From the NCBI RefSeq assembly GCF_900093605.1, contig NZ_FLYE01000044.1, forward strand, positions 1 to 57,095: a DNA stretch of 57,095 nucleotides, in the 5' to 3' direction. Shown here one piece after another: positions 39,604 through 56,828 of the stretch. The notes below the pieces were generated by a model. That model was not told the DNA's origin. It was given only the letters and a program-made list of their open reading frames with translations, and did not search any database. The position numbers and the translations under genes were made by a program. This DNA comes from Candidatus Terasakiella magnetica. Lineage in GTDB: Bacteria; Pseudomonadota; Alphaproteobacteria; Rhodospirillales; Terasakiellaceae. Every line of letters starts with the position of its first letter. The first letter of the stretch is position 1.

Positions 39604-40266
39604 GTGAAAGTTTTACTCGCTGACGACCATTCTATTGTCCGCACAGCTTTAAAATATGTTCTCTCTGAATTGGCACCCGAGCTTAATGTTGTTGAAGCGC
39701 GCAATAATGGCGATATTTTAAAAGCCCTTGATGACAACAGCGAAGGGTTTGATCTGGTCATGCTGGATTTGCGCATGCCGGGTATGGATGGCAACGGGCA
39801 GGCTATTGCCCAAGTGGTAGAACGGGTTGATCCAACACCGGTTTGTGTGTTCACGGTTTCTGAAGACCCCGATGAAATGCGCGCGGTTCTGGCTGCTGGC
39901 GTGCGTGCTTATATCCCTAAAACAACCGATGACGGTCTGATCGCAACGATCTTAAAACTAGTCTTAAGTGGCGGGTCTTATGTCCCACCTGTTTTGGGCG
40001 GGCTTGATACCAGCGTCGCGATGGAAAATCCAAACCAATCGGCATCAAGCTCAATGGCAACCAAAGATATTTTCCCCGATTTGACACGGCGTCAACGCGA
40101 AGTTTTGGCGCTGTTGGCTGAAGGTCTGTCTAATCAGGAAATTGGTGAGCGTCTTGATTTGAACCTAAGTACCGTCAAAAGCCATGTGACAGCTATTTTG
40201 CGTACCCTTGATGTGGAAAATAGAACCCAAGCGGTTTTGAAGTTTCAAAATGCAATTGGCAAGTAA
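39604..40266 (+). CDS. NarL/FixJ-family response regulator
   Basis: 220-residue transcription factor. LLADDHSIV opens the receiver, phospho-acceptor D55 (VMLDLRMPG), Lys in YIPKTTDD. A LuxR-type helix-turn-helix occupies about 155-215 (LTRRQREVLALLAEGLSNQEIGERLDL, described only in part: SNQEIGERL helix). The start is GTG with AAAGGTG upstream. It faces the PilJ/NarX-like kinase gene, whose stop is 3 bases away, so they are a cognate pair. With the nap operon next door, nitrate control is likely. Confidence 0.9.
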   Translation: MKVLLADDHSIVRTALKYVLSELAPELNVVEARNNGDILKALDDNSEGFDLVMLDLRMPGMDGNGQAIAQVVERVDPTPVCVFTVSEDPDEMRAVLAAGVRAYIPKTTDDGLIATILKLVLSGGSYVPPVLGGLDTSVAMENPNQSASSSMATKDIFPDLTRRQREVLALLAEGLSNQEIGERLDLNLSTVKSHVTAILRTLDVENRTQAVLKFQNAIGK

Positions 40267-40269
40267 GCT

Positions 40270-41718
40270 TTAATCTGTTTCTTTTAAGGGCAGAAGAATG
40301 GCAAATTTAGACCCTTTGCCAACCTCAGACTCACAGGAAATTTCCAACTCAAGAAGGTCGGCGAGACGTTTAACGATGGCAAGCCCAAGGCCGATACCTT
40401 CACTTCGGTCACGCTCAGGATCATCGAGCTGGGAAAATTCCGTAAAGATTTTATCCATACCTTCTGCAGGGATGCCGGGTCCGCTATCCCAAACTTCGAT
40501 ACTAATGTGATCATCAACACGGCGACAGCCAAGCAAGATACGCCCCTCTTTGGTATAGCGAATGGCGTTGGACAGGAAGTTGCGCAAAATTCTTTCTAGT
40601 AAAAGCGGGTCAGTATGGAGCTTTAAGCTTGAAGGCACCATGCGCAAGCCCAATCCTTTGGCATGGGCAGAAACACGATATTCGCGGGTGAGCTGGGTTA
40701 GAAGCGGTTGCAGCTCAAAGTGCGATGGATTGGGCTCGATTACGCCTGCCTCAAGCTTGGAAAGCGAAAGGATGGAGTCTAAAAGGGAGCGCATGGAACG
40801 TTGTGCATCATGCATATCGCGCATAATCGCCGCACTTCGATCATCAGGCATGCGACGCTCTAACATGCCGGAAAACATGCCGATGGCTTCAAGGGGTTGT
40901 TTGAGGTCATGACCCGCAGCTGCCAAAAACTTTGATTTGGCTGCATTAGCTTTTACTGCGGCCGTTTTGGCCTCTTCAAGCTGTTGGGTACGTTGGGTCA
41001 CGGTTTCTTCAAGCCCATCGGAGAAGTCTTTAATGCGCATCATCTGTAAAGACACATGGCGCACCATCGGTCTGAAGATGAAAAAGGCTTCAACGGTGAG
41101 GACCAATATGGTCAGGCTCAGAAAAACCGCCTCAAGCCAACGCAGGAAATCAAACGCTTTTTCACCTTCTTCCTGATAAAATTTCACCATGGAATCAAGG
41201 GCTTCAACCAGTTTACCCGGTGCTACCTCCAGAACGAATTTAACGGAAGGGTGCTCCGGTGAAAGCTCGTCTGATGGCATGTCAATAATTTCACGCAACA
41301 CTTCGATATAGCCCCGCATCTGTGCATTAAGCGGGTAGGCCCCTTTAAAATAGCGTTTGCGCGCCTCCGGTGACATATCGATGGACATGTTAATGGCATT
41401 TGCCCGCCCGGTGAGGGCAAGGTGGGCTTGTTGCAGCAAGATTGTGGAATGGCGCAGTTCTTTTCTAAATTTTTGCTGTTTTGAATAACTGTCGGCTGCA
41501 GCCAGTTGGGCAACGAAAAGGGCGGTGCGCTGAGACAGCATACGCTGGCGTCCGGAAATATTTACAACCGAGAGCGTGCTTTTATGTTCCGCAATCAATA
41601 AGCCCACAGTTCCAAAGGCAGATGCCGCCAGAATCGCAATTGCCATAAGCGCAAAAATATAGCGCTTGGTCATCCAGAAACCGGGGTTCTGTTCATCGGG
41701 TTTGAGTAATCTTTCCAT
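40270..41718 (-). CDS. Sensor histidine kinase with PilJ/NarX-like nitrate-type sensor domain
   Basis: 482-residue membrane kinase. TM1 about 20-43, a periplasmic four-helix PilJ-type domain, TM2 about 195-216, coiled coil, HisKA with H270 in GHDLKQPLEAIG, and HATPase with DSGPGIP and GIGLGLAI. The periplasmic start VVNISGRQRMLSQR (51-64) resembles the P-box of NarX/NarQ, which binds nitrate or nitrite between two subunits. Its gene is divergent from napF, 195 bases apart, and convergent with the NarL-type regulator. This is good context for nitrate sensing, though ligand binding is inference. Confidence 0.9.
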   Translation of the reverse strand: MERLLKPDEQNPGFWMTKRYIFALMAIAILAASAFGTVGLLIAEHKSTLSVVNISGRQRMLSQRTALFVAQLAAADSYSKQQKFRKELRHSTILLQQAHLALTGRANAINMSIDMSPEARKRYFKGAYPLNAQMRGYIEVLREIIDMPSDELSPEHPSVKFVLEVAPGKLVEALDSMVKFYQEEGEKAFDFLRWLEAVFLSLTILVLTVEAFFIFRPMVRHVSLQMMRIKDFSDGLEETVTQRTQQLEEAKTAAVKANAAKSKFLAAAGHDLKQPLEAIGMFSGMLERRMPDDRSAAIMRDMHDAQRSMRSLLDSILSLSKLEAGVIEPNPSHFELQPLLTQLTREYRVSAHAKGLGLRMVPSSLKLHTDPLLLERILRNFLSNAIRYTKEGRILLGCRRVDDHISIEVWDSGPGIPAEGMDKIFTEFSQLDDPERDRSEGIGLGLAIVKRLADLLELEISCESEVGKGSKFAILLPLKETD

Positions 41719-48261: not shown

Positions 48262-48400
48262 CCTGTTTAAAAAAATGCTGAACAAGCGTATATCCATTGC
48301 AACAGGTTTAAAACTAAGGCGTCATTCCCAATTTGATTGGGAGTCTCTTCATTGAAAAAAGATCTTTGCCCATGCGAGGATGACGTTGTGTGATGGATAT

Positions 48401-51400
48401 ATGAACATGCTCCCGATATTGACACCCGATCGCGCCCTTGATGATGTGACTGTGCGCTTTTTAAAAGCGTTGGAAAACTCATCTTTTACAGGTGAGGTTT
48501 ATGCGGATTATCCCACCCGTTTACTCAGCGCAACGGACAATAGTGTCTATCAGGTGATGCCTCAAGCCGTGGTCTATCCGGTCTGTGAAGACGACCTCAA
48601 TGTGATTGCCAAACTCGGTGCCCAAGAAGAGTTTCGGGGCATTTCCTTTGCCCCGCGCGGGGGCGGCACGGGCACAAACGGTCAATCACTTAATAACGGT
48701 GTGGTGGTTGATACCTCCAAACATATGAATAACATCCTTGAGTTTGATGAAGAGGCGCAACTGGTCACCATCCAGCCCGGTGTGGTGCTTGATCAGCTCA
48801 ATGCATATTTAAAAGAACGTGGCTTTTTCTTTCCCCCTGCGGTGTCCACATCATCACGCGCCACATTGGGCGGCATGACAGGGACCGATGCATCGGGCAA
48901 AGGCTCGCGCATTTATGGTAAGACATCTGATTATATTCATGAGATGGGTGTGGTTCTTTCTGGTGGTCAAAGCTGGACGTCCAAGCCCTTAAGTGCGCCT
49001 GAGATGAAAGAGGTTATGGCGCGCGAAGATATTGTTGGAGATATCCATCGCCAAGCTTACAATTCCATTGTTGAAAATGAAGAACTGATTGATCAGACTT
49101 TTCCAAAAATGAACCGTGGGCTGACAGGCTATAACCTTGAACATGCCCTAGATAATAACGGCACCTTTAACCTGTCTTATCTGCTGGCAGGCTCTGAAGG
49201 TTCGCTTTGTTTAACGCAAAAACTAACGTTTCGTGTGATCCCACTGCCGAAGAATAAAGGGCTGGTAACGGTGCGTTATTCCACCTTCAATGAAGCCTTG
49301 GAAGGGGTGCAGTTGATTTTACAGGCTGATCCGGCTGCTGTGGAAGTGGTGGATGACAAGATTATGAGTATGGCCCAGCAAGATATCATCTGGACGCAAG
49401 TGGGCGATATGCTGGGCGGTGAAGAAGGTGAGCCCCCTGTCATGGGGATGAACTTTGTCGAGTTTGTGGGCAATTCCCAAGAAGAAGTTGATGCTCAAAT
49501 TGCCAAGCTTGAAAAACTTTTGGATGATGCTTTAGAGTTAGAGGGTCAAGCCACGGGCTGGCGCGCGACCTCAAACCCGGCGCAGATTTCAGCGCTGTGG
49601 GAAATGCGCAAAAAATCAGTGGGTCTGCTCGGGGCCTTGCAAGGTAAACGCCGCGCAATTCCATTTGTGGAAGATACCGCCGTGCCGCCAGAAAATCTCG
49701 CACCTTACATTCGTGAGTTTCGCGAGCTTCTTGATGGGCATGGGGTGGATTACGGTATGTTTGGTCATGCCGATGTGGGCTGCTTGCATGTGCGCCCGAC
49801 CCTTGATCTCACCGATGTGATGGATGAGCCCAAACTGCGTGAAATCTCAGACGGTGTGGCAGACCTGACCAAGAAATATGGCGGCCTGTTGTGGGGCGAA
49901 CATGGAAAAGGCTTCCGTGGGGAATATTCACCAAAATTCTTTGGACCCGAACTTTATGACGAGCTGCGCAAAATCAAGTCGGCTTTTGATCCGCATAACC
50001 TGTTTAACCCCGGTAAAATCGCCACGCCTTATACCATGCCTGAGGTGGAACTGACGCCCATTGATAAGGCCACGTTGCGTGGACAGGTTGATCGCACCTT
50101 AGATGACAAGATCAAGGCGGCTTATCCAAAAGCGACCTTATGTAATGGTAATGGCGCTTGTTTTACATGGGATGCGTTTGATCCCATGTGCCCAAGTTAC
50201 AAGGCCACGCGTGATCGGGTGCAATCACCAAAAGGGCGCGCAGGCTTGTTGCGAGAATGGATGCGTTTGCGCACCATGGCTGAAAAGCCTGATGCACCCA
50301 AAGCCTTGGCGGAAGGTAAAGACTTTAACCTTGATGTTTATGAGGCCTTAAAGACGTGCCTGTCTTGTAAAACATGTGCGACCCAATGTCCGGTCAAGGT
50401 GGATATCCCTGAAATGAAGGCTCAGTTCCTTGATGCCTATCATGAACGTTATGACCGTCCACGACGTGATCATCTGGTTGCCCTGTTGGAAAAGCTGGCA
50501 CCGCTGACCCAGAAGTTTGCAGGCTTAAGCAATTTCATGCAGGCCTTGCCCCCTGTAAAAGCCTTTATGAAAAATGGTTTTGGCTTAATTGATTTGCCTA
50601 AAGTCAGTTCCTTAAAAGTGGAAAAAGAACTGAGTAAACGCAAAGCCCCTGCTTTTGACCTGAGTGCCATGAGCGCCCTTTCTAAGGAGGCCAAGGAAAG
50701 GTCGGTCATTTTGGTGCAAGACACCTTTACAACCCATTATGATAGCGAAGTCGTGATAGCGCATTATGATTTACTGGTTGAGCTGGGCTATCAGGTGTTT
50801 GTTGCGCCCTATCGCCCCAATGGTAAACCATTGCATGTGAAAGGCTTCTTAAAAGAGTTTGATGCGCTTGCCACAGAAAATGATGCTTATTATGCATCTG
50901 TCAGTGCCACGGGTATTGAGATGGTCGGGATTGAGGCCGCTGTTACCTTGATGATGCGCCAGGAATATAACCAGCGTCTTGAAAATCGCCCGGATTATAC
51001 GGTTTATCAATTTCATGAATGGCTGCATGGTAAATTAAGAGCAGGCGCATTGAGCTTACCTCAAACAGGCTCGTCCCAAGAATATGCCCTGTTTGCCCAT
51101 TGTACGGAAAAGACGTCTTTGCCCCAAACACCAAGCCAATGGAGCGATATCTTTGCCGCCTTTAACCAAAGTTTGCGCATTGAAAAAACAGGCTGTTGCG
51201 GCATGTCAGGCATGTTTGGTCATGAGGTGGAAAATGAAGACATGTCGAAAAAGCTGTTTGCTCTAAGCTGGAAAGACAAGGCGGCCAAAGTGGGTGCAGA
51301 GCGTATGTTGGCAACAGGATTTTCCTGTCGTTGCCAAACAAAACGTTATGGCAATTTCAAACCCCGCCATCCGGTTCAGGTCTTACTTGAATTGGCGAAA

Positions 51401-51406
51401 ACCTAA
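48401..51406 (+). CDS. YdiJ-like FAD and Fe-S dehydrogenase (D-2-hydroxyglutarate/D-lactate type)
   Basis: About 1001-residue flavoprotein with YdiJ architecture, close in length to E. coli YdiJ (1018), whose relatives oxidise D-2-hydroxyglutarate. FAD-binding domain (about 40-250; RGGGTGTNGQSLN and TGTDASGKGS), FAD-oxidase C domain (about 270-545; GHADVGCLHVRP), then Fe-S motifs near 580 (CNGNGAC...CP) and 650 (CLSCKTCATQCP), and a C-terminal CCG domain with TGCCGMSG near 930. Start chosen by alignment with YdiJ; ATG at 48380 or 48407 are alternatives. It feeds electrons probably to the quinone pool. Its stop overlaps the convergent membrane-sensor gene. Confidence 0.9.
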   Translation: MNMLPILTPDRALDDVTVRFLKALENSSFTGEVYADYPTRLLSATDNSVYQVMPQAVVYPVCEDDLNVIAKLGAQEEFRGISFAPRGGGTGTNGQSLNNGVVVDTSKHMNNILEFDEEAQLVTIQPGVVLDQLNAYLKERGFFFPPAVSTSSRATLGGMTGTDASGKGSRIYGKTSDYIHEMGVVLSGGQSWTSKPLSAPEMKEVMAREDIVGDIHRQAYNSIVENEELIDQTFPKMNRGLTGYNLEHALDNNGTFNLSYLLAGSEGSLCLTQKLTFRVIPLPKNKGLVTVRYSTFNEALEGVQLILQADPAAVEVVDDKIMSMAQQDIIWTQVGDMLGGEEGEPPVMGMNFVEFVGNSQEEVDAQIAKLEKLLDDALELEGQATGWRATSNPAQISALWEMRKKSVGLLGALQGKRRAIPFVEDTAVPPENLAPYIREFRELLDGHGVDYGMFGHADVGCLHVRPTLDLTDVMDEPKLREISDGVADLTKKYGGLLWGEHGKGFRGEYSPKFFGPELYDELRKIKSAFDPHNLFNPGKIATPYTMPEVELTPIDKATLRGQVDRTLDDKIKAAYPKATLCNGNGACFTWDAFDPMCPSYKATRDRVQSPKGRAGLLREWMRLRTMAEKPDAPKALAEGKDFNLDVYEALKTCLSCKTCATQCPVKVDIPEMKAQFLDAYHERYDRPRRDHLVALLEKLAPLTQKFAGLSNFMQALPPVKAFMKNGFGLIDLPKVSSLKVEKELSKRKAPAFDLSAMSALSKEAKERSVILVQDTFTTHYDSEVVIAHYDLLVELGYQVFVAPYRPNGKPLHVKGFLKEFDALATENDAYYASVSATGIEMVGIEAAVTLMMRQEYNQRLENRPDYTVYQFHEWLHGKLRAGALSLPQTGSSQEYALFAHCTEKTSLPQTPSQWSDIFAAFNQSLRIEKTGCCGMSGMFGHEVENEDMSKKLFALSWKDKAAKVGAERMLATGFSCRCQTKRYGNFKPRHPVQVLLELAKT

Positions 51407-52428
51407 ACGTCTTCGTCAATATGGCGGCTGACTTCGCCGTAGAGATTGACATAGCCCGCATCTAAAACCGGGATGGCCCTGAAGGTGATGATGGTGTCGC
51501 CACAGCGGATATCGCCATAGACTTGTTTTGTCTCGTAAAAAGCTTTGCGCACCAGTTCAGAAAGGGCCGGGGCGACGAACTCTTTTGTGTCATCGCCAAA
51601 AAGGGCGCTTTGATTGCGCGCAGCCACATTTGAATAAAGCACCTTGCGATTTACCGAACAGCGCAGCAAGGCATAAGGTGTTTCATGAAGAAAGCGGGCT
51701 TCAAAATCAGACTTACCTTTGGCCTCGCTAATTTCAATGCGCATGGCTTCAATCTGTTTTGCCAAAAGGGCTACGTCGTCTTTGGATTTGGTGATGTCTT
51801 GCGCCACAGGGGTACTGGCAAATTTTCCATTATTGCTTTTAAGAAAATCAGAAATGCGGTGTAAGGGTTTGATGCTGTAGCTGCCATATAGCCATAAACA
51901 GACAAGCGCGAGGATAAAGGCAAAAAGGGGTGCGACACCCCAGTTGATCAGTGTTCCCCATAACGGGTGAGGCATCAAATCTGCCCCATCTAGGCGCAGC
52001 ACAATCCAGTCAAAATCCAGCTCGGGCTCTAAACGAATGGCGATATCAACCACGCTCTTGGTATCATCCCAATGGGTCAGCTGAAACTCTTGTGAGGTCA
52101 GCGGGGGAAAGTCACTTTGTGTCTCGCCTACACTTAAGGGGATATCGCGCCCTTGGAGGAGACGCACGCCCAAGACAGATTCTACATTGAGCAGGTCATT
52201 GACCTTAAGCAACATATCATCGGCCTCTCCCCCTGCACTTAGGGCTGTGGAGGAAAGGGTGCGTGCAAATTTAGTCAGGCTGTTTTCACGAAGCTTTTCT
52301 TCTTGTTCGCGCAACAAGCTGCCAAGCAAAACAACCAAGGCAAAGCTGCACAGCGCAATTGCCCAAGCCGCTTTGCGTGCATTTGGGGACTGCCAAGCCA
52401 GTTTGATTGATCCGTGTTGTTTTGTCAT
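51403..52428 (-). CDS. Membrane PAS-domain sensor without output domain
   Basis: 341-residue membrane protein. TM1 about 18-38, periplasmic domain 40-158, TM2 about 160-183, HAMP-like segment 184-235 and a C-terminal PAS-like domain (about 245-335). No kinase, cyclase, GGDEF or methyl-accepting region follows: the protein ends after the PAS-like fold. It could pass a signal by direct contact, perhaps to the LuxQ-like kinase transcribed divergently from it. Start: I use the ATG at 52428; the frame is open 69 bases further to a second ATG that would add an unusual hydrophobic stretch. The 3' end overlaps the YdiJ-like gene by 4 bases. Confidence 0.75.
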   Translation of the reverse strand: MTKQHGSIKLAWQSPNARKAAWAIALCSFALVVLLGSLLREQEEKLRENSLTKFARTLSSTALSAGGEADDMLLKVNDLLNVESVLGVRLLQGRDIPLSVGETQSDFPPLTSQEFQLTHWDDTKSVVDIAIRLEPELDFDWIVLRLDGADLMPHPLWGTLINWGVAPLFAFILALVCLWLYGSYSIKPLHRISDFLKSNNGKFASTPVAQDITKSKDDVALLAKQIEAMRIEISEAKGKSDFEARFLHETPYALLRCSVNRKVLYSNVAARNQSALFGDDTKEFVAPALSELVRKAFYETKQVYGDIRCGDTIITFRAIPVLDAGYVNLYGEVSRHIDEDV

Positions 52429-52568: not shown

Positions 52569-53708
52569 ATGATACGTATACTCTGTATATCTCTTTTGCT
52601 CGTATGGGCAGGGGAGGGTTTTGCAGGATCAAACGGGTCTGATTATTGGACCTATCATGAATATATGTCAGCTAATCCTGAGCAACGAGAAAAGACAGAT
52701 AAATTTTCACAACGAGTGCGCGCTAAAGCTTCTGAAGTGCAAAATATTCAAAAGCCTGTGAAAGTGGCGGTCGTCTATCCGGGTAAGCAGGTTAGCGATT
52801 ATTGGTGGCGCAGCGTATCGTCCTTTGAAGCGCGCTTGCAGGAGTTAAACTTACCTTATGAAATCCACCCAAGCTTTACTGAGCCTGGGGTTGGTGTGAG
52901 ATTACAAGAACGGCAAATTGCACAGGTTTTGCAAAAAGATCCTGATTATCTTGTCTTTACACTGGATGCTTTTCGCCACCGCACAATCATTGAACGCATT
53001 ATGCAGCGCGGTCGACCTAAGCTGATTTTACAAAATATCACCACCCCTGTGCGCGCCTGGGCCAAACAACAGCCATTTTTATATGTAGGATTTGACCATG
53101 CAGTGGGCAGTGTTTTACTTGCTGAAAAATTCTTAAAAACTTTCCCAAAGAAAACCGATTATGCATTGTTTTATGGGACGCGTGGTTATGTGAGTTCTGT
53201 GCGCGGCGGGACGTTTATGGAACATGTCTTGCGTGAGGGGCAAGCAAAGGTAAGCGATTCCTTTTATCTGGATTTCAATCGTGAAAAGTCCAAAAAGGCG
53301 GCTTTGAATGTGTTGGCGAAAGAGAATAAGCCACCCTTTATTTATGCCTGTTCAACAGATATTGCCCTTGGGGTGATTGATGCAGCAAAAGAACTTGGCA
53401 TTCTGGATCAAATTACGGTCAATGGCTGGGGTGGTGGCGGTAATGAGCTTAAAGCCATTGCGGCTGGCGAACTTGATTTTACCGTGATGCGCATGAATGA
53501 TGATAATGGTGTTGCCATGGCGGATGCGATTGCTATGGATTTACAAGGCATGGGCGCTTCTGTTCCGACAGTTTATTCTGGGGATATGGAGTTGATCGAA
53601 AAGGGTATGTCAGCGGGTCACATTGAAGCCTTGCGCAAACGCGCCTTTCGATATTCTGATCACTTTAAGACCCAGACGGATCAAGTCGTCAGGTTTGGTG
53701 GACGTTAG
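52569..53708 (+). CDS. luxP: LuxP-like autoinducer-2 binding protein
   Basis: 379-residue periplasmic protein with a signal peptide (about 1-19), strongly similar to Vibrio LuxP from YWTYHEYMSANPEQR to AFRYSD. The residues that contact AI-2 in V. harveyi LuxP (Q77, S79, W82, N159, R215, T266, D267, W289, R310) align here with Q74, S76, W79, N156, R212, T263, D264, W287 and R308. All nine are kept. GGGAGG lies before the ATG at 52569; an in-frame GTG upstream is not needed. The next gene, 6 bases on, is a LuxQ-like kinase. luxS is not in the window, so AI-2 may be produced elsewhere or sensed from other species. Confidence 0.93.
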   Translation: MIRILCISLLLVWAGEGFAGSNGSDYWTYHEYMSANPEQREKTDKFSQRVRAKASEVQNIQKPVKVAVVYPGKQVSDYWWRSVSSFEARLQELNLPYEIHPSFTEPGVGVRLQERQIAQVLQKDPDYLVFTLDAFRHRTIIERIMQRGRPKLILQNITTPVRAWAKQQPFLYVGFDHAVGSVLLAEKFLKTFPKKTDYALFYGTRGYVSSVRGGTFMEHVLREGQAKVSDSFYLDFNREKSKKAALNVLAKENKPPFIYACSTDIALGVIDAAKELGILDQITVNGWGGGGNELKAIAAGELDFTVMRMNDDNGVAMADAIAMDLQGMGASVPTVYSGDMELIEKGMSAGHIEALRKRAFRYSDHFKTQTDQVVRFGGR

Positions 53709-53714
53709 ACTATT

Positions 53715-56700
53715 ATGAGTGAAGCAAAAAAGGGCCTTCATTTATCGACTTTTATTTTAGCGCTGTCTTTTGGCGGCGTTTTAATGGTGTCTACCCTTTT
53801 TGCGATTTCGAGCTATTTTTCAGCACGTGATCTAATTGATCATGAAATCCAACAGTCCTTTGATTTTCGCCATCGCATTATTAATTTTAGCCTAGATGAA
53901 AAATTGGGCCGCGCGGCGAGTCGTTTGTCGGCCATGTCCGATTCTGAACAGCTGATTAAAGCGATCAATAGCAATGAGCGCGAGGCTATTGAAGAAAGCT
54001 TATTCTCTATTTTGCAACATGAAGAGACACAGAACCTTGATGTCTTGATGCTCAGTGGTGAAAACGGTGTGTTGTTAGGGGATGTGAGCTCTCCTTTAAG
54101 TGTGATCAATGCCAAAAAAGAAATGTTGATCACGCAATCTTCCAAGGCGTTTCAGAAATGGACCTTGGTGCAGCTTAATGATGCTGAACAAACCAACGCT
54201 TTGTTGTTTAGTGTGCCTGTGATTGAGGCCGAGCTGGGCCGGGTCATTGGTGCCATTCACAGCGCGATAGCCATTAGTGAGAATTTCTTGTTTGCCAAAG
54301 AGCTTAAAGAGGCCTCTGGTGTTGATCAGTTGCTTTTGCTGCAAGATAATCATGTGCTTGTTCATTCCTTTGGGCCCAATCCTGATGAAAAAACAGCCGC
54401 AAAAATAAGAGAAATTTCACAAATTTCAGCAGGTAAAACAGTTCAGGTTAATGATCATATTGCCCAGCGTTTTAATATGGGTGTTAAGGAAGAAAATCGC
54501 GCGCAGCTGTCTGTTATTTTGTTACTGCGCCGTGATAATGTGGCCTCTCTCTTTGATGTTTATTCAAAAGGGGGTGTTTATCTGATCGTCGGGGCTTTGC
54601 TCACGGCCTTATTCATTGCTTATATGGTGCGCCGTCTGATTGGCAGCAGTACGGATCATTTGATTGATTATGTCGCAGATATCAAAAAGCATCGCCACCA
54701 TGCACGTTTTACCCCCGGTCCGGTGCAGGAGTTTAACCATATTGGTGGTGTGGTCAGTGAAATGGTCACGACCATTCATGAAAATGAACGTTATTTGACA
54801 AACCTGATTGAGTTGGCGAACTCCCCGATCATTGCGTGGAATGGGGAGGGGCGTATTACCAAGTTTAACCGGGCAGCGGAGAGAATTTTTGGGCGCACCC
54901 AGACAGAAGTCGAAGGTATGGCCGTTCAAAAGGTGATCGCCATGATCGGCTTGGCTGAAAAAGACAAAGACAGTGTCTTGGATCGGTCTTTAAAGGGTGC
55001 CGTGATTGATAACTGGGAAATGGCACAGAATAACCCCAAAAGCGGGCAAGACTATCATATGTCTTGGAGTATTTCACCCGTTGCCTTTCATCAGGATAAT
55101 TCGGTTGCAACCATTTTAGCTCAAGGTCTGGATTTAACGCAGCGCAAACTGGCTGAAGAAGAACTCCATCGGGTCAATGAAGAGTTAGAACTGCGCGTCA
55201 TGCATCGCACACGCGCCATGGAAGAAGAGATTACCGAAAGACGCCATATTGAGGCGGAGCTGCGCCAAAGTGAAGAGCGTTTTCGCGATATTGCCGAGGC
55301 TTCTTCTGACTGGTTCTGGGAGATGGGGGACGACCTCCGTTTCACCTTTATGTCTGAACGGGCCTTGAAAGTAACGGGCTTTGGGCCAAAGGATATTTTA
55401 GGCAAGACCCGCATGGAGTTGGTCACGCCTGAGCGCATGGCAAATGAGGGTGAGAAATGGCGCGAACATCAAGCCCTTTTGGAGCGCCATGAAGCCTTTA
55501 GAGTCTTTGAATATACCATTGTAAATACCCATGGGGATGAACGGGTGTTTCGCATCAGCGGAAAACCCATTTTTGATGATACGGGAAAAACTTTCTTGGG
55601 CTATCGGGGCTCCGGGCGTGATGTGACGGATGAATATCTTCGTGCTCAAGAGTTGCGCCTTGCCAAGGAAGAGGCCGAAAATGCCAGTCAGGCCAAATCA
55701 GAATTCCTGTCTTCCATGAGCCATGAGCTGCGCACGCCGCTTAATGGTATTTTGGGCTTTGCTCAACTTCTTTTGATGCCACGAAAAACTGAGCTGGATG
55801 AGGGGCAAAAAGAATTCGTCAACCAGATTTTGAAGGCAGGCCAGCACCTGTTGGATTTGATCAACGAAATCCTTGATCTCGCCAAGATTGAAGCGCGCAA
55901 AGTTCAGGTCTCTTTAGAAGCCGTCACACCTTGGCGGGTGATGGGGGATGCTTCAGACCTGCTTGAAGGCCTGTCTACTGAATATGGCATTGAGGTCATT
56001 AATGAGATTACTGAAGATAACGCAGTTCAGGTTGAGGCCGATTACACCCGTTTAAAACAAATTCTCGTGAATTTAGGCAGTAATGCCATCAAATATAACA
56101 AGCCAAATGGTCAGGTGCGTTTCAGCTGTGAAATTTGCACTGATGAAAATATGCTTCAGTTTGATGTTGTTGATAATGGTCCGGGCATTCACCCCGATGA
56201 AATCGAAGAGCTCTTTACACCCTTTAACCGTTTGAATGCGGAAATGTCCGGTGTGGAAGGCACAGGCATTGGCCTGACCATTACCCATAAGCTGGTCGGT
56301 CTTATGGGCGGGCGCATGGGCGTTGAAAGTGAGTTGGGTAAAGGGAGCCATTTCTGGTTTAGAATTCCGATTTTCCAAGAAGATAACTTGGAAGAAATAG
56401 AGAGACGTCGCAAACCCTCAATGATGCCAGAAAAATCAATCCTGCAATTGGAACGCGATGCAAAAATCCTCTATGTGGAAGATAACCCCAACAACAGTAA
56501 GCTCATGGAAGAGGCTCTTTTACCTTATGGGGAAATCTCATTAGAGATCATTCGCACTGCCGAAGAAGGGTTGGAGTATCTTGAAAATGCGAATGTAGAT
56601 TTGATTTTTCTAGATATCAATTTACCCGGTATGGACGGCTGGCAAATGATGGAAGTTTTGCGCAATCAGTCTGAAACAAAAAATATTCCGGTTGTAGCGG

Positions 56701-56828
56701 TAACAGCCCAAGCCATGCATAAGGATATTGAACGCGGTAAAGAGGCAGGTTTTGTCGATTATTTACCCAAGCCGTTTAATATTAATGATCTTTATAAAAT
56801 CATTCAGACCTACACGCGGGCAGATTGA
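53715..56828 (+). CDS. luxQ: LuxQ-like hybrid sensor histidine kinase (PAS, PAS, HisKA, HATPase, REC)
   Basis: 1037-residue membrane kinase. TM1 about 12-33, periplasmic domain (34-285) with two PAS-like lobes as in LuxQ, TM2 about 287-305, a HAMP-like segment, PAS1 (about 358-475), coiled coil, PAS2 (about 518-640), HisKA with H670 (MSHELRTPLNG), HATPase with DNGPG and GTGIGLTI, and a C-terminal receiver with D967 (FLDINLPGMDG). LuxQ of Vibrio lacks two cytoplasmic PAS domains, so this is an enlarged version. No HPt is present; a separate HPt like LuxU would be required, and none is in the window. It follows luxP by 6 bases. Confidence 0.9.
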   Translation: MSEAKKGLHLSTFILALSFGGVLMVSTLFAISSYFSARDLIDHEIQQSFDFRHRIINFSLDEKLGRAASRLSAMSDSEQLIKAINSNEREAIEESLFSILQHEETQNLDVLMLSGENGVLLGDVSSPLSVINAKKEMLITQSSKAFQKWTLVQLNDAEQTNALLFSVPVIEAELGRVIGAIHSAIAISENFLFAKELKEASGVDQLLLLQDNHVLVHSFGPNPDEKTAAKIREISQISAGKTVQVNDHIAQRFNMGVKEENRAQLSVILLLRRDNVASLFDVYSKGGVYLIVGALLTALFIAYMVRRLIGSSTDHLIDYVADIKKHRHHARFTPGPVQEFNHIGGVVSEMVTTIHENERYLTNLIELANSPIIAWNGEGRITKFNRAAERIFGRTQTEVEGMAVQKVIAMIGLAEKDKDSVLDRSLKGAVIDNWEMAQNNPKSGQDYHMSWSISPVAFHQDNSVATILAQGLDLTQRKLAEEELHRVNEELELRVMHRTRAMEEEITERRHIEAELRQSEERFRDIAEASSDWFWEMGDDLRFTFMSERALKVTGFGPKDILGKTRMELVTPERMANEGEKWREHQALLERHEAFRVFEYTIVNTHGDERVFRISGKPIFDDTGKTFLGYRGSGRDVTDEYLRAQELRLAKEEAENASQAKSEFLSSMSHELRTPLNGILGFAQLLLMPRKTELDEGQKEFVNQILKAGQHLLDLINEILDLAKIEARKVQVSLEAVTPWRVMGDASDLLEGLSTEYGIEVINEITEDNAVQVEADYTRLKQILVNLGSNAIKYNKPNGQVRFSCEICTDENMLQFDVVDNGPGIHPDEIEELFTPFNRLNAEMSGVEGTGIGLTITHKLVGLMGGRMGVESELGKGSHFWFRIPIFQEDNLEEIERRRKPSMMPEKSILQLERDAKILYVEDNPNNSKLMEEALLPYGEISLEIIRTAEEGLEYLENANVDLIFLDINLPGMDGWQMMEVLRNQSETKNIPVVAVTAQAMHKDIERGKEAGFVDYLPKPFNINDLYKIIQTYTRAD

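Follow-up and report, generated by a model that had tools for sequence, protein, structure and literature searches.

A tandem luxP–luxQ-like gene pair in Candidatus Terasakiella magnetica probably encodes a receptor for autoinducer-2 (AI-2) that is used to receive AI-2 from other species. LuxPQ is usually described as a Vibrio system by which a cell hears its own AI-2. The pair described here occupies positions 52,569 to 56,828 of a 57,095-nt stretch of DNA (the window), which lies in contig 43 of an assembly of 3.68 Mb rated 100% complete. Given that the receptor pair is intact and that luxS was not found in the genome, we reasoned that the cell probably listens to other species. The features of the pair are as follows.

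52569..53708, + strand: luxP, predicted periplasmic AI-2 binding protein, 379 aa (matches to V. harveyi LuxP structures, contact residues, model and fold)
53715..56828, + strand: luxQ-like hybrid sensor kinase, 1037 aa (open frame and domain matches)
53829..54548, + strand: LuxQ-type periplasmic (double-Cache) domain of the kinase (PF09308, E = 9e-23)
54780..55166, + strand: first cytoplasmic PAS domain (sensory_box, residues 356–484; PAS, 363–405)
55296..55637, + strand: second cytoplasmic PAS domain (PAS_4, residues 528–641; PAS_9, 532–639)
55692..55895, + strand: HisKA domain, with the phosphoacceptor motif SHELRTPL from residue 669
56040..56372, + strand: HATPase_c domain, with N-box-like NAIKYN and G-box-like DNGPGI and EGTGIGL
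56466..56804, + strand: C-terminal receiver domain, with DLIFLDINLP from residue 962

The luxP gene starts with ATG, with GGAGG just upstream, and the N-terminus of its product looks by eye like a signal peptide. The kinase gene follows after a gap of 6 bases, and both frames are open over these coordinates.

LuxP and its ligand pocket

The window LuxP is 51% identical to V. harveyi LuxP and matches the structures of that protein (1jx6, 1zhh, 4yp9 and 2hj9) with 370–371 bits (E ~1e-109), whereas the best non-LuxP protein among the Protein Data Bank (PDB) matches listed, a sugar-binding protein, scores 35 bits. Pfam assigns it only the general family Peripla_BP_4. A structural model (predicted local distance difference test, pLDDT, 88.8) superposes on AI-2-bound 1jx6 with a root-mean-square deviation (rmsd) of 1.2 Å and a template modelling (TM) score of 0.97 by target length; the non-LuxP proteins listed give TM scores of 0.89 or less. 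A collapsed pocket, which the first-pass annotation of the window had named as grounds for rejecting an AI-2 receptor, was looked for in this model. We see no sign of one: the model is closer to the AI-2-bound form (1.2 Å) than to the apo form, 1zhh_A (3.8 Å).

All nine residues that contact AI-2 in V. harveyi are kept, as the first-pass annotation had read from the sequence (9/9 in our alignment): Q74, S76, W79, N156, R212, T263, D264, W287 and R308. Their V. harveyi counterparts are, in the same order, Q77, S79, W82, N159, R215, T266, D267, W289 and R310, among which we take D267 and W289 to be AI-2 contacts. Seven of the nine are described as hydrogen-bonding AI-2 in 1JX6 (PMC9687752). We conclude that the window LuxP is, as judged from its sequence and modelled fold, a genuine LuxP-type AI-2 binding protein.

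When one genome per species was scanned, 295 LuxP stretches were confirmed; the best 80, the closest relatives, were kept (30 of them from Vibrionaceae). The nine contacts are identical in 13 of 13 rows of a first alignment and in 58 of the 63 LuxP rows, window included, of a larger one. Of the five rows that differ, L067 has an undetermined residue, L083 carries E in place of Q and L090 S in place of D, while L038 and L039 show several changes. Four Roseobacter-group relatives that lie beside ATP-binding cassette (ABC)-transporter genes carry E or D in place of the glutamine and A in place of the aspartate, and one of the four is near a gene annotated lsrK. On a plasmid of Roseicitreum antarcticum (L026:4956-6092), a LuxP-like protein with an altered pocket is encoded amid ABC-transporter genes, near lsrK (autoinducer-2 kinase).

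The kinase and its putative relay

The kinase domains read in the first-pass annotation were matched by domain models: PF09308 (LuxQ-periplasm) covers residues 39–278 with 81 bits (cut-off 25.7), the one PF09308 match in the assembly, and the C-terminal receiver was likewise found. Modelled residues 1–336 (pLDDT 81.6) have LuxQ of V. cholerae or V. harveyi as all of their top six PDB matches, with TM scores of 0.73–0.79 by target length and rmsd of 3.7–4.3 Å for the periplasmic model. The HisKA, HATPase_c and receiver domains are all present with recognisable H, N, G and D motifs. Against the NCBIfam LuxQ_Vibrio equivalog model the kinase scores 405 bits and does not reach the cut-off of 1200; by these profile scores it is a LuxQ homologue and not the Vibrio equivalog.

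Two further PAS domains, suggested to integrate a cytoplasmic signal, had also been proposed. Both PAS regions were found; their status as additions stood less well. Pfam finds no PAS in V. harveyi LuxQ, but a stretch of that protein lines up with the first PAS of the window kinase, and perhaps only the second is truly extra. More than one PAS is not unique to the window, as two Pfam PAS stretches also occur in the LuxQ partners at L047 and L055. A role of the PAS domains in integrating a cytoplasmic signal is plausible.

The first-pass annotation had noted that luxU was missing. No LuxU was found above cut-off in the whole genome (weak matches to HPt-type proteins, best score 28 bits, cut-off 140), whereas the same search gave 159 bits in V. 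harveyi, 158 in V. ostreicida and 85, itself below the cut-off, in Thaumasiovibrio. Histidine phosphotransfer (HPt) proteins are not lacking: there are 11 matches, 10 of them above cut-off, so that a phosphorelay is possible. One is a stand-alone 116-aa protein (G000:C47), which we do not call LuxU because it scores 22 bits against the cut-off of 140 and the TorS and ArcB models score higher. Immediately beside the pair, no response regulator or HPt gene was seen on either side. Qrr small RNAs gave no match in the genome, but the control genomes gave none either.

In V. harveyi, the LuxP–AI-2 complex acts on LuxQ and shifts it from kinase towards phosphatase, and phosphate moves between the receiver, an HPt protein and a regulator (PMC3386761). 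By analogy, the window LuxP would bind, in the periplasm, AI-2 or a very similar borated furanose that other species have made, and would clasp the kinase at its double-Cache domain. In the HisKA/HATPase core, kinase and phosphatase activity would be rebalanced, by homology with V. harveyi towards phosphatase. Phosphate would pass from the kinase's own receiver to one of the HPt proteins of the genome and on to a response regulator, and the PAS domains between membrane and kinase core could supply a second input.

Absence of luxS

The lack of luxS, at first remarked on for the window, extends to the whole assembly, where no match was found in a search that matched 5 of 14 control genomes. Nor was there a luxS match in any of the 12 genomes of the order with a LuxP match that were searched (six of them also among the 80 loci). 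For a wider survey, 50 of the 80 loci were submitted and 49 genomes searched (L072 absent); the survey left out L077, L084 and L093, which are not from Vibrionaceae, and 27 Vibrionaceae loci. luxS was found in 13 of the 49 genomes and gave no match in 36. By group, it was found in 0/28 Alphaproteobacteria, 9/11 Gammaproteobacteria (Vibrionaceae 3/3, others 6/8), 3/3 Campylobacterota, 1/5 genomes of Desulfobacterota classes, 0/1 Magnetococcia and 0/1 unclassified. We conclude that alphaproteobacterial LuxP carriers probably do not synthesise AI-2 by LuxS. Since Alphaproteobacteria in general are described as using SahH rather than LuxS (PMC524169), the absence of luxS is not itself a sign of adaptation.

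LuxP and the kinase in the genus Terasakiella

The kinase locus is conserved in the genus and consists of nap genes, a gene for a GlcD-type oxidoreductase, a divergent gene for a 341-aa membrane protein and then the kinase gene. The membrane protein is matched in all six genomes of the genus and adjoins the kinase or luxPQ in all four that have the kinase; it is a possible candidate partner of the luxPQ system. LuxP, present in five of the six genomes, stands in front of the kinase in the window and in Terasakiella brassicae. Two further genomes, G434 and G418, carry the orthologous kinase at the same locus without LuxP beside it: the whole G434 genome has no LuxP match at 1e-10, and in G418 the LuxP match is on another contig. 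In G400 and G459, no kinase was seen at the locus, and LuxP lies elsewhere without a LuxQ neighbour. A profile search found no LuxQ-like periplasmic domain in the G400 genome, and in G459 only weak LuxQ-periplasm pieces, on a 1014-aa frame that is the counterpart of a GGDEF-EAL protein of the window's genome. The unlinked state is probably derived, since linkage of LuxP and LuxQ is the rule among loci outside the genus.

The GGDEF-EAL protein of the window's genome (L159:6592-9627; G000:C1:217591 on) has 1011 aa and the Pfam order PAS-PAS-GGDEF-EAL, is matched in five of the six genomes of the genus, has an N-terminus that is weakly LuxQ-like by profile, and lies near a gene that looks PstS-like by eye. 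A first reading of it as a paralogue of the kinase was dropped, given its Pfam domains (two PAS, GGDEF, EAL) and the lack of any match to PF09308 at 1e-3; it is a candidate second partner of LuxP. Orphan LuxPs of the Terasakiella clade, with all nine contacts and no LuxQ neighbour, are encoded at L029:9654-10802, L030:9822-10970 and L031:9807-11012. The first of these, from G400, has a hydrogenase-small-subunit-like gene on one side and receiver-domain genes on the other (both identified by eye).

Weighing the evidence

Several observations count against reception of foreign AI-2 by this pair. The kinase cores of T. brassicae, G434 and G418 are 69%, 64% and 58% identical to that of the window, whereas the periplasmic domains are 37%, 19% and 21% identical, and the PF09308 score falls from 81 bits in the window to 57 in T. 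brassicae, 29 in G434 and 20, below the cut-off, in G418. As the cores are kept while the periplasmic domains and their scores diverge, coupling to LuxP is not stable in the genus, and this rapid fading of the LuxQ signature among orthologues slightly lowers our confidence. Most simply, the sensor half would go with LuxP: where LuxP is not alongside, the periplasmic domain would have drifted or been replaced. The relay partner of the window kinase is putative. Several of the luxS-negative genomes are drafts or metagenome bins, and completeness is not stated for the 49-genome survey. Finally, AI-2-like furanones can arise without LuxS, and the absence of luxS is therefore no proof that the ligand is foreign.

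It is possible, if rather unlikely, that LuxP binds some other borated or plain sugar-like molecule, such as a deoxyxylulose- or formose-type borate ester, and that the pair is a metabolite sensor. By their titles, entries 4yr7 and 4yp9 show the V. harveyi protein with 1-deoxy-xylulofuranose borate and with an analogue derived from formose, the genome has no luxS match, and genes for a GlcD-type oxidoreductase and a molybdopterin oxidoreductase (nap) adjoin the pair. Conservation of all nine AI-2 contacts speaks against a changed ligand, for which it need not hold; the remoter relatives beside ABC-transporter genes do alter some of them.

We regard it as improbable that the double-Cache domain senses a ligand directly, with LuxP accessory or by now dispensable. 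Such domains are described as binding AI-2 directly in other receptors (PMC7584622), and the G434 and G418 kinases stand at their locus with no adjacent LuxP. However, the low identity of their periplasmic domains to that of the window is as expected if the partner changed, and LuxP adjoins the kinase in the window and T. brassicae; at 76 of the 80 loci its neighbour is a gene with a LuxQ domain. We retain a LuxP-LuxQ receptor for AI-2 from other species as the probable explanation.

Distribution and phylogeny of LuxP

Among 199 genomes of the order, 13 have a LuxP match, which in two (G416 and G406) is remote, with 30 and 37% identity; among 385 genomes of the class, 9 have a PF09308 match, above cut-off in 8. 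The closest named LuxP among the best 80 of 295 is that of T. brassicae (70% identity). In a 66-row maximum-likelihood tree, from which L038, L163 and L164 were left out for their long branches (they were kept in a quick tree), the window and T. brassicae proteins group together (98/93) and join three other Terasakiella-clade LuxPs in a five-row clade (100/99). This clade lies inside a 34-row group (91/85) of Alphaproteobacteria and one Magnetococcales bin, apart from Vibrionaceae. Vibrionaceae, Campylobacterota and Aeromonadaceae each form their own clade (100/100 in all three cases), and the Desulfobacterota rows group with one unclassified proteobacterium (99/95). Contrary to a clean split by class, L034 and L036, from the window's order, fall with Gammaproteobacteria (98/92 and 89/64). 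These groupings suggest that Vibrio is one branch of an old, partly mobile LuxP family. The first-pass view of LuxPQ as a Vibrio system in an odd setting thus has to be given up: LuxP is a wide family (295 stretches), and luxS-negative carriers outside Vibrio were in print in 2008.

A recent import of luxPQ from Vibrio would account for the gene order and for a hybrid kinase with a receiver, both as in Vibrio. This is made very improbable by the tree, since LuxP falls in a mainly alphaproteobacterial clade apart from Vibrionaceae, and by base composition (45.6% GC in luxPQ, 46.4% in the window). A viral carrier was also looked for: none of 15 pattern matches in a scan of viral contigs is a relative. 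In a Vibrio fluvialis stool isolate, luxPQ is carried by a linear record of 83.5 kb that is typed as a mobilizable plasmid (L025:5001-8687).

That LuxP merely binds sugars and happens to adjoin a sensor kinase unrelated to it, as the general Pfam assignment might suggest, is ruled out, as far as sequence and fold go, by the difference in scores (371 against 35 bits), the fold, the LuxQ-specific periplasmic domain encoded next door, and both trees. In these the protein lies inside LuxP and apart from the binding proteins of sugar and ABC type that were included; a tree placing it among sugar-binding proteins is what the first-pass annotation had named as refuting its reading.

Output domains of LuxP partners

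At 76 of the 80 loci, the gene directly downstream of LuxP has a LuxQ domain, which argues that the pairing is old. Of the remaining four, L046 and L059 end at a contig end, and L043 and L044, both of the Terasakiella clade, have no LuxQ partner. The LuxQ frame of Vibrio owensii DY05 (L075:11014-12189) has only 391 aa and was left out of the output classes, leaving 75 full frames. Among these, 53 are kinases (38 with a receiver, 15 with no receiver seen), 18 carry GGDEF-EAL, one ends in a SpoIIE-type phosphatase (Desulfococcaceae, L054:11218-13455) and three have PAS domains only.

A first, scripted classification had given 35 kinases with receiver, 14 kinases, 18 GGDEF-EAL proteins and 9 unassigned, and was revised by Pfam. 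This moved L078, L103 and L121 to kinase with receiver, L066, L080, L083 and L098 to kinase (L098 with HATPase above and HisKA below cut-off), L054 to SpoIIE, and L084, L093 and L110 to PAS only. Pfam was run on the partners at 19 of the 80 loci, plus L042 and L114; the others were classed by phmmer, for which the window and L036 supplied the seeds. The PAS-only proteins (L084:2633-4228, L093:2646-4319 and L110:2943-4709) are LuxQ-like proteins of Oceanisphaera and Oceanimonas, and no kinase, receiver, GGDEF or EAL match was found in the fetched loci at 1e-5; the related L058 does have GGDEF-EAL.

The GGDEF-EAL partners come from Stappia, Labrenzia/Roseibium, a Rhodobacteraceae bin, one alphaproteobacterium, Oceanospirillum, Oceanisphaera, Zobellella and Marinobacterium, at the following loci.

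GGDEF-EAL loci: L048, L049, L052, L056, L057, L058, L061, L063, L065
GGDEF-EAL loci, continued: L067, L074, L077, L081, L091, L096, L107, L109, L111

Beyond these 18, a genome of the window's order also has this form (L036:5921-9097). Among 52 rows of the LuxP tree, at least four switches between kinase and GGDEF-EAL are required. A pair of LuxP and a LuxQ-periplasm–GGDEF-EAL protein is a possible switch from AI-2 to cyclic di-GMP (c-di-GMP). More tentatively, LuxP may be a periplasmic AI-2 clasp that is plugged into several classes of transmembrane output in Proteobacteria, Desulfobacterota and Campylobacterota, often without luxS. In Terasakiella it would be changing partners, and orphan LuxPs might act in trans with other Cache-type receptors, for example the GGDEF-EAL protein beside the pst-like gene.

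Neighbouring genes

On one side, the pair is flanked by a 503-aa frame on the opposite strand. The genes on the other side are given below, the second of them as context outside the system.

51403..52428, − strand: divergent membrane protein (by eye), about 341 aa, no Pfam or NCBIfam match
48380..51406, + strand: flavin adenine dinucleotide (FAD)/iron-sulphur (Fe-S) oxidoreductase of GlcD type, end of the nap region

Further upstream (39604-41718), a NarL/GerE-type response regulator and an opposite-strand PilJ-domain kinase lie ahead of the nap-like genes, and possibly regulate that cluster.

Discussion

The window pair resembles V. harveyi LuxP-LuxQ in the identity of LuxP, the listed contacts, the LuxQ-type periplasmic domain, the hybrid kinase with receiver and the tandem genes. 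Unlike in V. harveyi, the kinase has 1037 rather than 860 aa and two Pfam PAS domains rather than none, its LuxQ_Vibrio score is 405 of 1200 bits, and the genome has no luxS match and no LuxU above cut-off.

The occurrence of LuxP beyond Vibrio and in bacteria without luxS, and the idea that a cell may receive without sending, are already in print (PMC2561040, PMC12268683). In 2008, LuxP homologues were described in luxS-negative Oceanospirillales and Desulfuromonas, two of them beside a PAS-containing regulator (PMC2561040); the text suggests recognition of a signal that the cell cannot make, and the abstract concludes that LuxPQ is restricted to Vibrionales. The window likewise has LuxP without luxS, and Alphaproteobacteria are not among the carriers named in the cited part of that paper. 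A 2025 survey lists 267 LuxP proteins, mainly from Proteobacteria, and three tested sensory domains bound AI-2 (PMC12268683); in its cited passages, LuxP figures as a sensor domain only and in transport, and the outputs of its partners are not described.

A 2016 survey of Cache domains places LuxQ-periplasm in the Cache superfamily and counts 112 kinases and one c-di-GMP-type protein among 115 (PMC4822843, in the part cited), whereas 18 of our 80 LuxP loci have a GGDEF-EAL partner. Control of c-di-GMP by AI-2 has been described for YeaJ/GAPES1 and the dCache receptor CahR (PMC12268683) and for a V. furnissii kinase (PMC11796354); as described there, these work without a pair of LuxP and LuxQ-periplasm. 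Among the listed titles and abstract openings of openly licensed papers, we found no report of LuxP with GGDEF-EAL partners. As far as we found, three things are new here: a receiver in Alphaproteobacteria that has this kinase, how numerous and independent the GGDEF-EAL and other outputs are, and the separation of LuxP from the kinase inside a single genus.

A conserved LuxPQ without luxS would be a clean model of interspecies eavesdropping, in which neither feedback nor the metabolic side effects seen in luxS mutants would intrude. With one AI-2 clasp, interchangeable outputs and, maybe, direct control of c-di-GMP, an effect of foreign AI-2 on biofilm or motility becomes testable in Stappia, Labrenzia and Oceanospirillum. 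Because the kinase locus has LuxP in some genomes of the genus and lacks it in others, the genus can serve as a natural experiment on the assembly and loss of a two-part sensor.

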